Below, one piece after another: positions 11,553 through 30,561 of a stretch of DNA of 64,000 bases. The notes under the pieces are model-generated. The model made no database searches, was not told the origin of the DNA, and worked only from the letters and a program-made list of their open reading frames with translations. Origin of the DNA: Sphaerotilus uruguayifluvii. GTDB lineage: Bacteria; Pseudomonadota; Gammaproteobacteria; Burkholderiales; Burkholderiaceae_C. The position numbers were made by a program, and so were the translations under genes. The stretch is from NCBI RefSeq assembly GCF_013294065.1, contig NZ_JABSNM010000006.1, positions 162,978 to 226,977 on the forward strand, in the 5' to 3' direction. Every line of letters starts with the position of its first letter. Within the stretch, counting starts at the first letter, position 1.

Positions 11553-13127
11553 TCAGGGCCGCACCACCTCCAGCAGCCGGTCCAGGCCGCCGGACTCGAT
11601 CGCCACCATCGCGCGCTCGCGCACCGCCGGCTTGGCGTGATGCGCCACCGACAGGCCGACCGCGCCCATCATCGGCAGGTCGTTGGCGCCGTCGCCCATC
11701 GCGATGGCCTGGCGCGGGTCGATGCCGTGCTGCGCGCACAGGGCCAGCACCGTGCGGCGCTTTTCCTCGCCGTCGCAGATGTCGCCCCAGTCCTGGTCGA
11801 GCACCCGGCCGGTGAGGCGGCCGTCGGCGTCGACCTCCAGCAGGTTGCTGCGGGTGTGGTCGATCTGCAGCAGATCGCGCAGCCGGTCGGTGAAGAAGGT
11901 GAAGCCGCCCGAGACCAGCACGATCTTCAGGCCGGCGGCCTGGCAGGTGCGCACCAGCGTCTCGGCGCCGGGGTTCAGGCGCAGCCGCTCGGTCCAGACC
12001 GCCTCCAGCGCCGACACCGGCACGCCGGCCAGCAGCGCCACGCGACGGCGCAGGCTGTCCTTGAAGTCGGTGATCTCGCCGCGCATCGCCGCGGCGGTGA
12101 TCGCGGCGACCTCGGCCTTGCGGCCGACCGCGTCGGCGATCTCGTCGATGCACTCGATGTTGATCAGCGTCGAGTCCATGTCGAACGCGATCAGGCGGAA
12201 GTCGGCCAGCCGCAGCGGCGGCTCGAAGCCGCGCACCACCAGGCCCGGCGCGATCTCGCGCGCGGCCGGCAGCACCCGCATCGACAGGTCGATGGCACGC
12301 ACGTCCTTGGTGAGGCGGCCGATCGAGACGCGGTCGACGCCGGTGGCGGCGATCTCGCGGATGGTCGTCATGTCGACGCCGCCGGAGACCTCCAGCAGCG
12401 CGCGCCCCCGGTTCAGCGCCACGGCCGCGCGCATGTCGTCGAAGGAGAAGTCGTCGATCAGCACGCTGGTGGCGCCGGCGTCCAGCGCCTCCTCCAGCTC
12501 GACCAGGCTCTCGACCTCGATCTGGATGCTCACGCCCGAGTCCAGGGCCTGCGCGGCCTTCAGCGCCGCGGTGATGCCGCCGGCCGCGGCGATGTGGTTT
12601 TCCTTGATCAGGATGCCGTGCCACAGCGCCAGGCGCTGGTTGGCGCCGCCGCCGACGCGCACCGCGTACTTCTGCGCCTGGCGCAGGCCGGGCAGCGTCT
12701 TGCGGGTGTCGAGCACCACGCAGCCGTTCGGGTTCGGGCTCAGTCCGGCGATCGCGTCGACATGCTGGCGGGTCACGGTGGCCACCGCCGAGAGCATCTG
12801 CAGGAAGTTCAGCGACGAGCGCTCGGCGCTGAGCAGCGCGCGCGCCGGCGCGTCGATGCGGCACAGCTCGGTGCCGGCCGTGAAGCGCGCACCCTCGGCC
12901 ACCGCCCAGTCGACGCGGATCGAGGCATCGCAGCCGTGCATGCAGCCGTCGAACCAGTCGCGGCCGCACAGCACGCCGTCCTCCTTGGCGACCACGCGGG
13001 CCTGCACGCGGCGGTCGGCTGGCACCAGTTCGGCCGTCCAGTCGCAGCGGCCGATGTCTTCATACAGCGCGTCGCGGATGTTGCGTGCGCGGGCGGCTTC
13101 CAGGGTCTCGTCGTCTTCGAAGTGCAT
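11553..13127 (-). CDS. Fusion of quinolinate phosphoribosyltransferase (NadC) and phosphoserine phosphatase (SerB)
   Basis: One 524-residue frame holds two enzymes. Residues 1-285 are NadC, which turns quinolinate and PRPP into nicotinate mononucleotide. DTRKTLPGLR (Arg142, Lys143), GGGANQRLALW, LIKENHI (Lys175), IEVES and LIDDF are intact, and it ends normally at TKDVRAIDLSMR. Residues about 295-524 are SerB, the last step of serine synthesis. DMDST (Asp316, Asp318), VSGGFTFF and GDGANDLPMM are all present, without an ACT domain. No stop codon separates the two parts, and the junction joins the natural NadC end to a natural SerB start. The ATG at 13127 begins the NadC part. An internal ATG (LSMRV) could allow separate SerB but has no ribosome binding site. 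Confidence 0.9.
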   Translation of the reverse strand: MHFEDDETLEAARARNIRDALYEDIGRCDWTAELVPADRRVQARVVAKEDGVLCGRDWFDGCMHGCDASIRVDWAVAEGARFTAGTELCRIDAPARALLSAERSSLNFLQMLSAVATVTRQHVDAIAGLSPNPNGCVVLDTRKTLPGLRQAQKYAVRVGGGANQRLALWHGILIKENHIAAAGGITAALKAAQALDSGVSIQIEVESLVELEEALDAGATSVLIDDFSFDDMRAAVALNRGRALLEVSGGVDMTTIREIAATGVDRVSIGRLTKDVRAIDLSMRVLPAAREIAPGLVVRGFEPPLRLADFRLIAFDMDSTLINIECIDEIADAVGRKAEVAAITAAAMRGEITDFKDSLRRRVALLAGVPVSALEAVWTERLRLNPGAETLVRTCQAAGLKIVLVSGGFTFFTDRLRDLLQIDHTRSNLLEVDADGRLTGRVLDQDWGDICDGEEKRRTVLALCAQHGIDPRQAIAMGDGANDLPMMGAVGLSVAHHAKPAVRERAMVAIESGGLDRLLEVVRP

Positions 13128-26800: not shown

Positions 26801-27688
26801 TCAGGTCGAGGCCGGCTCCGTCGCCTGCGCCTCGCGGCTGATGCGCATCGTGACGTCGACCGCGCGCAGGTGCTTGGTGATCGAGCCGACCGCGACCCGG
26901 TCGACCCCGGTCTCGGCCAGCGTGCGCACCGTCTCCAGCGAGGCGCCGCCGGAATACTCGACCAGCGTGCGGCCGCCGCATTCGCGGTGCTCGCGCACCA
27001 TGCGCGCGACCGTCCTGACCAGCTCGAGCGGCAGGCTCTCGACCAGGACCAGCTCGATGTCCTCGTCGAGCGCGATCAGCGTGTCCTCGCGGGTGCGGAT
27101 CTCCGCCATGATCGGCACGTTCAGGCCGAGCGCGCGTGCGTAGCTGATCGCCTCGCGCAGGCCGCCGGCCGAGGCGATGTGCACGTCCTCGATCAGGAAG
27201 CCGTCGTGCAGGCCCATGCGGTGGTTCAGGCCGCCGCCGGCCAGCACCGCGTACTTCTGCGCGCTGCGCAGGCCGGGCAGGGTCTGGCGGGTGTCGACGA
27301 TGCGCGCACCCGTCCCGGCGACCGCGTCGACATAGCGGCGCACCGAGGTCGCGGTGCCGGTGAGCGTCTGCAGGAAATTCAGCGCGGTGCGCTCGCCGGT
27401 GAAGATCGTGCGCGCGCCGCCCGAGAGCGTGCACAGCAGGTCGTCGGGCTGCACCGAGGCGCCTTCCGGCACCGCCCATTCGATCGAGATCGTCGGGTCG
27501 AGCGTGCGGAAGACCGCGTCGAACCAGGGCTGGCCGCACAGCACCGCGGCCTCCCGCGTCATGACCCGGGCGGTGACCTGCTGGGCCCGGGACAGCAGCA
27601 CCGAGGTCACGTCGCCACTGCCGATGTCTTCGGCCAGGGCGTTCTCGACGCACAGTTGCAGGTCGGCGGGCGGGCTGACGGTGTTCAT
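26801..27688 (-). CDS. NadC paralogue with altered active-site residues
   Basis: A 295-residue homologue of quinolinate phosphoribosyltransferase and the second NadC in the window. The fold is kept: ALNFLQTLTGTAT, TLPGLRSAQKYAVLAGGG, NHRMGLHDG and GVDRVAVGSITKHLRAVDVTMR. Several residues that hold quinolinate or PRPP differ. The DTRK lysine is Gln135, the LIKENH lysine is Glu167 (LIEDVH), the EVE motif reads AEIR and the LDD/LDN aspartate is Glu217 (LVES). All are canonical in the fused copy at 11553-13127. It may therefore use another substrate or be inactive. AAGG lies 5 bases before the ATG at 27688. It is divergent from the recombinase-like gene and converges on DUF779. Confidence 0.85.
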   Translation of the reverse strand: MNTVSPPADLQLCVENALAEDIGSGDVTSVLLSRAQQVTARVMTREAAVLCGQPWFDAVFRTLDPTISIEWAVPEGASVQPDDLLCTLSGGARTIFTGERTALNFLQTLTGTATSVRRYVDAVAGTGARIVDTRQTLPGLRSAQKYAVLAGGGLNHRMGLHDGFLIEDVHIASAGGLREAISYARALGLNVPIMAEIRTREDTLIALDEDIELVLVESLPLELVRTVARMVREHRECGGRTLVEYSGGASLETVRTLAETGVDRVAVGSITKHLRAVDVTMRISREAQATEPAST

Positions 27689-27810: not shown

Positions 27811-27890
27811 AAGATACTAACAGCTAATTGAACGAAGCCCGGAACGCCCTCGGAAACGTGCACGAGGAAAGCTGTTTTCGTTAGTATCTT
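27811..27890. repeat. 11-bp perfect inverted repeat before recombinase-like gene
   Basis: Left arm AAGATACTAAC (27811-27821) and right arm GTTAGTATCTT (27880-27890) are exact reverse complements separated by 58 bases. The right arm ends 3 bases before the ATG of the recombinase-like gene and the left arm faces nadC-like at 27688. In both outward directions the arm reads TTAGTATCTT, which contains -10-like TAGTAT. It could be a pair of operator sites or recombination sites. The region is much richer in A+T than its surroundings. Confidence 0.8.
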
Positions 27891-27893
27891 TCC

Positions 27894-28991
27894 ATGGACA
27901 CCGCGACTCTCTCCCTGTTCGATCCCTCGCCGGGCGATGCGCTGGCCGAGCGGCTGCAGCAGCAGTTCCAGGCCTGGCTCGATTCCGCGCCGGCGCGCGG
28001 TCCGCGCCAGAAGGGCCGCCTGCGCGAGGAGTCGGCGCAGATCTACGCCGACATGTGGAACGCCTTCATCGCCTACTGCGCTCCTGCCGGCAGCGCGGAC
28101 GAGACCGCCGCAGGGCGCACGCTGCGGCTCGATCCGGACAGCGACGGCGCGCTCGACCGCGAGCACCTGGTCGAGTTCCTGGAACATGCCGCGACCCGGC
28201 CGCTGCGCCGGGTCCGCACCGGGCAGGCGCGCGCCGAGCTGACGCTGCGCTACGCCTGGCGGCTGCTGCAGCTGCTCGACCGGGTGCTCAACCATGCCCG
28301 CGAGCAGCAGGGGCGCGAGCCCTTCGAGGCCGCGCAGGCGCTGATGCAGGAAGCGCCCTATCGCTACGCCAATGCGGCGGCTCTGACGCCGGTGCCGGAT
28401 GTGCTGACCGATGCCCAGGCCGAGGCGCTGGTCGCTCACGCCACCGAATTCCAGGCGCTCGACCTGGCGCGCGGCATCACCTGGAAGGTGCTGCGCGACC
28501 GCTGCGCGCTTGCGCTGATGCTCGGCGCCGGGCTGGCGCCGGGGCAGGTGCGGGCCTTGCGCCTGGGCGACGTGACGATCGACGGCGGCCACGAGCCTGG
28601 CGTGCCCTGGCGGCTGACGGTCGTCGCCGACGGCAGTTGTCCGGAGCACCAGGTGCCGATCGCCGCCTGGGCGGCGCGCCAGCTGGGTTTCTGGCTGACC
28701 GTGCGGGCGCGGCTCGGCGAGGCGGTCGTGCGCGAGCCCTGGGTGTTTCCGTCGACGCTGGCGGGCAAGCCGTGGTCGCATCCGGCCTGCCACCGCGCCG
28801 CGGTCACGCTGATGGCCGCGCTGGGCATCGAGGGCGGCTCGCCGTTCCGGCTGAGGCACACCTTCGCGGTGCGCCAGCTGCGCAGCGGCCATGCCGAGGA
28901 GGAGGTCGCGCGCTGGATGGGCTATGTCGACACCGGCCCGATGAAGCGATACCGCCATGTGCTGACCGCGCCGGAGCGCGGGGTGGCCTGA
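27894..28991 (+). CDS. Tyrosine recombinase-like protein lacking most catalytic residues
   Basis: A 365-residue protein with a helical N-terminal region (about 40-160, SAM-like/core-binding) and a C-terminal domain that aligns with phage-integrase/XerD catalytic domains. Compared with XerD motifs, the first Arg (GLR) is Ala215 in GAGLAPGQVRALRL. The HxxR His is Phe318 (FRLRH), with Arg321 kept. The GH motif is GY (Tyr344), and the nucleophile Tyr353 is present in MKRYRHV. Three of the usual catalytic positions are therefore lost, while the fold and tyrosine remain. There is no adjacent transposon or att site apart from the 11-bp inverted repeat directly upstream. It may be a DNA-binding regulator derived from a recombinase. 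The ATG at 27894 has no ribosome binding site. Confidence 0.75.
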   Translation: MDTATLSLFDPSPGDALAERLQQQFQAWLDSAPARGPRQKGRLREESAQIYADMWNAFIAYCAPAGSADETAAGRTLRLDPDSDGALDREHLVEFLEHAATRPLRRVRTGQARAELTLRYAWRLLQLLDRVLNHAREQQGREPFEAAQALMQEAPYRYANAAALTPVPDVLTDAQAEALVAHATEFQALDLARGITWKVLRDRCALALMLGAGLAPGQVRALRLGDVTIDGGHEPGVPWRLTVVADGSCPEHQVPIAAWAARQLGFWLTVRARLGEAVVREPWVFPSTLAGKPWSHPACHRAAVTLMAALGIEGGSPFRLRHTFAVRQLRSGHAEEEVARWMGYVDTGPMKRYRHVLTAPERGVA

Positions 28992-29013: not shown

Positions 29014-30561
29014 TCAGAGCGGCGTGCGCTCGCAGCGGTCGAGCTGCTGGTACTCGCGCCGCGCCGACGGCGTGGCGAAGCGCTCGAACTGCTCGCTCAG
29101 GCGCGCGAGCTGGCGCAGCCGCAGCACCTTGTCGAGCTGGGTGATGTCGCGGTCGACGCCGACCTGCTCGAGATCGAGGGCAGCCCGGCGGTCCTGGCGC
29201 TCGGCCAGCGCCGGGTAGTCCTTCTGCGCCGTCAGATAGGACTGCGCCGCGCCCAGCTCGGTGGCCAGGAAGCGTGCATAGGCAGCGGTGTGGGGATGGG
29301 CCGCCTCGGGCCAGCGCTGCACCAGGCCGCGCTGCAGCCGCTGCTGCAGCTGCGTGATCTCGTCGTCGAGCCGGTGCGACTGCCGGTCGATCGCCTCGAG
29401 CCGCTGCTCCAGCGCCTGGTGGCGCGTCTGCAGCGCGCGCTGCAGCGCACGACCGCGCGGCGGCAGGCCCAGCCGCTGCGCCAGCTCGGCCGCCAGCCGG
29501 CCGTACTCGTTGTCGGGTTCGCTGGTCGTGTCGATGTAGCGCAGCCAGGCCGGCTGCCAGCGCTCCAGGTAGACCTCGCTGGTGGCGCGCGGCAGATCGG
29601 CGTTGTGGCCCTCCAGCAGCGCGTACAGGTGCGCCTCGTGCAGCGTGACCGTGCCGTCGCCGTCACGGTCGGGCGAGCGCGGCAGGCGCTGGCCGGCGCG
29701 GGTCATGCCGCTGAGCGCGGCGAAGAAGTAGGTGGTGTAGTCGCGGTAGTCGCCCGAGTCGATGCTGGCCGAGCAGCCCTCGGAGAGCCGGTCGGCAGAC
29801 TCGGCGGCGAAGCCGCAGCGGTTGTAGGCAGCCAGCGTGCGCGTGTCGCGCGCCTGCGGGCGGATCAGGCGCATGAAGCCGCCCGAGTAGCACTGCGTGA
29901 AGACGAAGCGCATCGGCACGGCCGGCGGCGCGCTGCCGGCCAGGCGCTCGAGCTCGCGCACCGACAGCCGGGTGTCGTCCCACAGGCGCAGCGTGTTGCC
30001 GGCCCGGTCGGAGAGGTCGCGCAGGCCGTGGCCGTTGAACACGAACAGGCCGCGGTCGCCCGGCCGCAGCGCCGAGAAGTCGCGTGCCAGCGTCGCGCCG
30101 AGCTGATCGACGCGGGTGCCGTGCACGGTGCCGCCGATGTGGTGCTTGCGGTACTGGTTGCCGTTGAATTCCTGCTGGCCGAAGACGCGCGCCAGCGGCT
30201 GCAGCGTCGCCTGGCCCTCGGCCGGCCGGCTCCAGATGCGCACGTCGCGCACTTCGGGCGAGGCGTCTGCGAAGAAGATGCGCAGGTCCGCCTGCGGCGC
30301 CAGCGAGCGCACGATGTCGGCCACCCACAGCACGTTGAGCTCGATCTGGCCCTGCGAGGCCTCGGGGTCCGGGCCGCCGCCGACCAGCCAGACATGCGAG
30401 CGGCCGGCCGAGGGCGCGCCTGCCGCCTGCGCATGCACCGCGCTGCCCGGCCAGGCCACCAGCGCCATCGCCGCGAGACTGCACAGGCGGCGCGCGATGG
30501 CCGAACGCCATCGGGCCGGCGCGTGCTCAGTGCTCTGCGGGAATGGTGGTCGGAGCTTCAT
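29014..30561 (-). CDS. Secreted caspase-like (clan CD) cysteine peptidase
   Basis: A 515-residue precursor. A signal peptide (about 1-45, ending VHAQA) precedes a caspase/legumain-like domain. The strand LFVFNGHG carries the candidate catalytic His178 and MRFVFTQCYSGGF carries Cys224, the His-Gly and Cys-Ser-Gly arrangement of clan CD peptidases. An EF-hand-like loop DRDGDGTVTLHE near residue 300 may bind calcium. Residues about 345-515 are predicted to be long charged helices, probably coiled coil (RHQALEQRLEAIDRQSHRLDDE). The start overlaps the end of the upstream membrane-protein gene by 35 bases, so the two are translated together. Substrate and role are unknown; an inactive homologue is possible. 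Confidence 0.7.
   Translation of the reverse strand: MKLRPPFPQSTEHAPARWRSAIARRLCSLAAMALVAWPGSAVHAQAAGAPSAGRSHVWLVGGGPDPEASQGQIELNVLWVADIVRSLAPQADLRIFFADASPEVRDVRIWSRPAEGQATLQPLARVFGQQEFNGNQYRKHHIGGTVHGTRVDQLGATLARDFSALRPGDRGLFVFNGHGLRDLSDRAGNTLRLWDDTRLSVRELERLAGSAPPAVPMRFVFTQCYSGGFMRLIRPQARDTRTLAAYNRCGFAAESADRLSEGCSASIDSGDYRDYTTYFFAALSGMTRAGQRLPRSPDRDGDGTVTLHEAHLYALLEGHNADLPRATSEVYLERWQPAWLRYIDTTSEPDNEYGRLAAELAQRLGLPPRGRALQRALQTRHQALEQRLEAIDRQSHRLDDEITQLQQRLQRGLVQRWPEAAHPHTAAYARFLATELGAAQSYLTAQKDYPALAERQDRRAALDLEQVGVDRDITQLDKVLRLRQLARLSEQFERFATPSARREYQQLDRCERTPL

Follow-up and report, generated by a model that had tools for sequence, protein, structure and literature searches.

A catalytically silenced tyrosine recombinase of Sphaerotilus uruguayifluvii as a probable autoregulator with its own inverted pair of sites

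A gene at positions 27894–28991 (+ strand) of the window, the 64,000-nt stretch of S. uruguayifluvii contig NZ_JABSNM010000006.1 (162,978 to 226,977, forward strand) analyzed here, encodes a 365-aa tyrosine recombinase that appears to have been catalytically silenced. Its probable role is to bind DNA and regulate its own gene, along with a small number of further targets in Sphaerotilus. As proposed here, a recombinase would have lost catalysis and retained its two-domain grip on DNA; one protomer per half-site would bind, sequence-specifically, to two inverted arms that overlap the gene's promoter or lie to both sides of it; and arm binding would repress transcription of the gene, probably through a bridge between the arms. 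Within the Sphaerotilus clade the protein may also bind a few single sites, one of which precedes a ParA-like gene by 138 bases. The specificity of the protein and both of its arms would drift together, leaving each lineage with a private site pair. What is read from sequence is the predicted fold, the loss of catalytic residues, purifying selection, concerted arm pairs and conserved further sites; binding, repression, bridging and an effect at the further sites are what we infer.

The integrase/XerD-like fold claimed by an earlier, sequence-only reading of this DNA is borne out. The ORF scores 40.3 bits against Pfam Phage_integrase (cut-off 27.1), with the match covering residues 171–357, the catalytic-type domain (28404–28964). 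Ahead of it is an N-terminal helical domain of core-binding type (approximately residues 13–139, 27930–28310), delimited by the secondary structure of the model and by full-length Foldseek matches. An AlphaFold2 model made with an alignment of 21 relatives has a mean pLDDT of 82.6 and a pTM of 0.57, and in Foldseek it matched XerA, XerH, Cre and lambda Int along most of its length, with XerA (5hxy) at the top (E 3e-8). The protein is thus predicted to have the complete tyrosine-recombinase fold, core-binding domain as well as catalytic domain.

Just two of the six catalytic positions are retained. Alignment with E. coli XerD (1a0p) and 11 canonical-looking recombinases gives A-D-F-R-Y-Y where active enzymes have R-K-H-R-H-Y: the Arg I position is A215 (codon 28536–28538), the catalytic Lys position D246 (28629–28631), the HxxR His position F318 (28845–28847) and the His/Trp position Y344 (28923–28925), while Arg II (R321, 28854–28856) and the nucleophile tyrosine (Y353, 28950–28952) are kept. 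The replacements at 215, 318 and 344 and the survival of R321 and the tyrosine had been named from the sequence alone, with correct numbering; the loss of the Lys at D246 is additional to these.

The same pattern runs through the family. Among 36 members (the 22 loci of the genome searches minus the fragment L024, plus 15 plasmid loci), Arg I, Lys, the HxxR His and the His/Trp are present in 0/36 each, and Arg II and Tyr in 36/36. The HxxR His column holds 28 Phe, 7 Tyr and 1 Arg. All six residues are present in each of 11 canonical-looking rows, which were picked by eye on the same motifs and so confirm the columns but are no independent test. In a further 22 relatives, distant or weak ones, the HxxR His and the His/Trp are missing throughout (0/22 each) and Arg II is present throughout (22/22), with Arg I in one and Tyr in 10. 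Purifying selection (dN/dS 0.09–0.33 across nine family pairs) indicates that the protein functions and that its gene is not in decay, and the invariance of R321 and Y353 within the family leaves room for some residual chemistry. The tree was made without L024, and the placement in it of L102, whose row is out of frame, is meaningless; L037 and L038 are the same loci as G009 and G008.

Family relatives at E ≤1e-20 were found in 18 of 200 genomes of the taxonomic family and in 18 of 399 in an order-wide search, and come from Burkholderiales; a class-wide search at 1e-20, with the best five candidates per genome scored, returned the source genome alone (1/369). Sixteen of 72,556 plasmid records have a relative, at a single place in each. 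None was found in 50,697 phage records, and a phage origin was rejected on this count.

Directly upstream of the gene is a perfect 11-bp inverted repeat, correctly described from the sequence alone as having arms 58 bases apart. The left arm, AAGATACTAAC (27811–27821), is part of an extended match AAGATACTAACAGC; the right arm, GTTAGTATCTT (27880–27890), ends 3 bases 5′ of the ATG, and the spacer between them (27822–27879) has 58 bases. The repeat score in the −200 to +20 region of the gene was reached by none of 40 dinucleotide shuffles, and exact copies of the 11-mer in the 4.9-Mb genome are confined to the two home arms. A scan of 29 stretches (28 distinct, as L110 and L019 are one record) found no third arm copy nearby, with the sole exception of a 3-mismatch match at window position 2152. 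In longer, GC-rich stretches, a score of 11 is also attained by two of the 11 canonical recombinases and a score of 10 by one more, so the window repeat alone is not extreme and the weight rests on a family-wide test of the arms.

For this test and for the arm counts, L110 was excluded, leaving 37 distinct loci. An arm pair before or at the start codon was found at 33 of them. The case that the sequence-only reading named as a refutation, relatives with no repeat upstream, does occur, in a minority: L011 and L014 have only a right arm, at the start codon, and no arms were recognized at L013 and L106. The arms are 8–19 bp long, roughly the size of tyrosine-recombinase half-sites, with spacers of 43–120 bases at the 33 loci. 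They share a TAAC-like core, and the letters beyond it differ between groups, as in another Sphaerotilus (AAATGGACTAAC, L007), in Aquincola (AAAACCGAACCAACGGCGC, L019/L110) and at L015 (AAATGAATTAACAGCA).

When each left region was scored against each right region, with all 37 loci retained, the mean was 11.73 for a locus's own pair vs 7.68 across loci; none of 20000 permutations reached the former value, the highest being 9.19. This comparison is a cautious one, since relatedness can only raise the cross-locus scores. L020 was kept in it although its right arm lies beyond the fixed window, its start codon being unsure. Taken individually, 13 of the 22 first-set loci exceed all 40 of their own shuffles. 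L002, L003 and L006 score 8, a value also reached by 7, 10 and 8 of 40 shuffles, respectively; they were counted as pairs because the ACTAAC core is shared at the same place. The two arms of a locus thus change together, and the site pair, present at 33/37 loci, goes with the gene and not with the neighbor. Five distant silenced relatives from one genus (L050, L052, L053, L055 and L059) have a repeat of their own upstream of the gene, ATGTCCTTTCCCC..GGGGAAAGGACAT, with arms 56–61 bases apart; a sixth row of the same genus, L054, has no such repeat.

The right arm may cover the gene's own promoter. It contains TAGTAT, a possible −10 element (27882–27887, + strand) 6 bases before the ATG, and this hexamer is kept within the right arm in 6/6 Sphaerotilus relatives, at a distance of 6 or 7 bases from the start codon. 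A TTGnnn hexamer lies 17 bases upstream in four of the six, and is absent in the window, where a consensus scan of the region found no sigma-70-like promoter.

Further candidate targets were sought with the pattern DACTAACRGC, which has 20 matches in the six gene-bearing Sphaerotilus genomes, six of them the genes' own left arms. Of the 14 matches away from home, 13 are in three orthologous places and one stands alone; gene names at these places were read from translations, without profile tests. Place A (five genomes) has a gabT-like gene on one side and a polyamine-type ABC transporter operon on the other, and its core TTTARATACTAACAGC is kept in five genomes of two sub-groups, between which the flanking intergenic DNA no longer aligns. 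Place B (five genomes) is within a crcB-like coding sequence, and place C (three genomes) precedes a ParA-like gene, in G000 by 138 bases. A single match was found in the genus outside these six, in a contrast set of seven genomes of which six do not have the gene and one has other arms. As this set is more distantly related, and as the further matches amount to few independent events (three places and one lone match), place A is the strongest single item. A variant of the right arm, TACTAACGAA, occurs at the home locus in 6/6 genomes and once elsewhere. It weighs against a role of the further sites that they are single arms with no inverted partner within 160 bases, unlike the home site, and that place B is in coding sequence. 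The reversed pattern has 134 matches vs 20, a difference in commonness that makes it a poor yardstick. At place B (L136, L138 and others), the motif uses GCT-ACT codons in a GC-rich genome, kept in four of the five genomes.

With XerC, XerD, XerA and XerH the silenced family has in common the whole-length fold, Arg II and Tyr. It differs from them in the replacement of Arg I, Lys, the HxxR His and the His/Trp, and in half-sites 43–120 bases apart (58 here) instead of flanking a short central spacer, which in active tyrosine-recombinase sites is 6–8 bp. A parallel from yeast is Ndc10, which is not known to be catalytic. In this kinetochore protein the tyrosine-recombinase fold is described as serving centromere binding (work cited in PMC6077249), so that here too such a fold is put to binding specific DNA; the protein differs in being eukaryotic and in not being a self-regulating gene product with a private site pair. 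Recombinase parts turned to DNA binding are also described for the eukaryotic ALOG and Crypton-derived genes (PMC3537659, PMC3212892), which have a separate origin and for which no arm pair was seen in the portions of these papers available. Recombinases that became DNA-binding regulators are known from eukaryotes. No report of bacterial silenced tyrosine recombinases as regulators was found in the literature covered (open-access papers, with most subscription papers missing), and a bacterial family with private, co-changing site pairs was not found in the open-access literature. Dozens of natural protein-and-site pairs for the choice of DNA by recombinases would be offered by this family, with a use in reprogramming Cre-like tools; the family also cautions that many "integrase" annotations do not mark integration.

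Of the alternatives to autoregulation, the one that survives best, although it is unlikely, is that of a replicon-maintenance protein, with the arm pair serving as a centromere-like or origin-linked site and as an operator, and with the Sphaerotilus copy a chromosomal descendant. Rep, ParA or ParB genes (Pfam Rep3, AAA_31/CbiA, HTH_ParB) were found within the flank (up to ~5–8 kb) at 9 of 35 family loci, in a search whose queries came partly from the same loci and in which some flanks were short; at one of them, L069 from another Sphaerotilus, a ParB-like gene is 87 bases away. Genes of these types also lie near four (L118, L119, L121 and L122) of the eight silenced relatives that are more distant. 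The conserved site upstream of the ParA-like gene in three Sphaerotilus genomes speaks for this role as well, as do the 16 plasmid records with their relative at one place each. Against it, the link recurs, yet most loci (26/35) have no such neighbor; the Sphaerotilus copies adjoin nadC and a conserved convergent gene; and the three kinds of site present in G006 map ~1.9–2.3 Mb on from dnaA on the circle, off the origin, a distance on which the idea of origin-proximal clustering of the further sites was dropped.

In a fuller version of this role, equally doubtful, the silenced recombinase and the site pair encoded with it would be a bacterial equivalent of Ndc10, a single-gene module, linked to ParA-type partition, for maintaining or positioning Burkholderiales plasmids and chromids. 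The module would later have settled on the Sphaerotilus chromosome, and would hold a handful of sites there, one of them before a ParA-like gene. ParR/parC, an autoregulating plasmid partition operon with repeats on both sides of its own promoter, is alike in having repeats around its own (here possible) promoter and in the proximity of plasmid maintenance genes. It differs in its fold, and the silenced family has one inverted pair and a partner ATPase near a minority of loci. L118, L121 and L122 are each ~3–4 kb from a Rep_3-like initiator gene, with the same unnamed neighbor gene, presumably KfrA, alongside; L118 is on a 2.6-Mb contig, ~4.6 kb from where the contig begins. In the main text of two papers on Burkholderia replicons (PMC4948915, PMC10809759), as far as it was available, there is no mention of an integrase or recombinase. 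The recurring rep/par neighborhood makes a replicon-maintenance role directly testable.

A leader hairpin, of RNA or single-strand DNA, that controls translation is quite improbable as an explanation of the arms. They can pair in the predicted RNA fold, but this fold has ordinary stability (z −1.20 and −0.65), the loops would have 43–120 bases, and the possible −10 lies within the right arm. Among 471 arm positions there are 20 mismatches, of which 18 are non-wobble and just two wobble (G-T). The few wobble mismatches, the range of spacers and the ordinary RNA fold together fit two double-strand half-sites better than a hairpin.

The protein is very improbable as an unusual relaxase of tyrosine-recombinase type, with the repeat as its oriT. 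TcpM, MobK and MpsA are likewise recombinase-like proteins with a cis site, the oriT, upstream of their own gene (PMC9299015), as the site pair is here; conjugation genes are near four loci (L082, L102, L103 and L109); and 14 of the 16 relative-bearing plasmids are typed as non-mobilizable, that is, with no known relaxase. However, TcpM, MobK and MpsA, as described in the part of that source available, keep the catalytic set and do not have the core-binding domain, the opposite of this family on both points, and conjugation genes were not recognized around most loci with the two such queries used. With four of the six residues missing and a core-binding domain present, a relaxase identity was rejected.

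Least probable of all is a DNA-inversion switch, the alternative offered by the sequence-only reading, in which the arms would be recombination sites and the spacer would flip. The inverted arms do flank a possible promoter, but the spacers aligned better unflipped in 10/10 compared pairs (several scores being weak), the catalytic set is lost, a segment of 43–120 bases is short for such a switch, and the arm letters vary by group, so that one shared host recombinase could not serve all. The arms also seemed to us to resemble integron attC sites (AAC...GTT, similar length); this likeness was dropped, as the arms of the distant silenced relatives do not have AAC...GTT and as even the best score to an integron integrase is weak (E 0.016).

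As first put forward, the idea of a recombinase turned regulator included control of the divergent neighbor as well as of its own gene. The silenced fold and the way the site pair goes with the gene speak for the idea, and the control of the neighbor is not supported. The neighbor, which had been called an altered NadC gene, passes the NadC equivalog cut-off (TIGR00078, 247.9 vs 198.4). It is adjacent in five of six Sphaerotilus loci, that of the window and those of four relatives; in the sixth, G006, nadC and the recombinase gene are 2.9 kb apart, with a Crp-like gene in between, and the repeat is intact, and outside the Sphaerotilus clade the family genes adjoin other, varied genes. Within the genus, nadC is present in 13/13 genomes and the recombinase gene, at full strength, in 7/13. 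On the other side of the recombinase gene, a convergent gene (29014–30561, − strand) is found downstream in 6/6 Sphaerotilus loci. Its 515-aa product has no Pfam match above cut-off, and by eye we take it to be caspase-like. The window also has a second NadC-like gene (12249–13079, − strand), with both QRPTase domains and 44% identity to nadC (26801–27688); a second match, of this kind, is found in 5 of the 13 genus genomes, and in G011 the sole match is of this kind.
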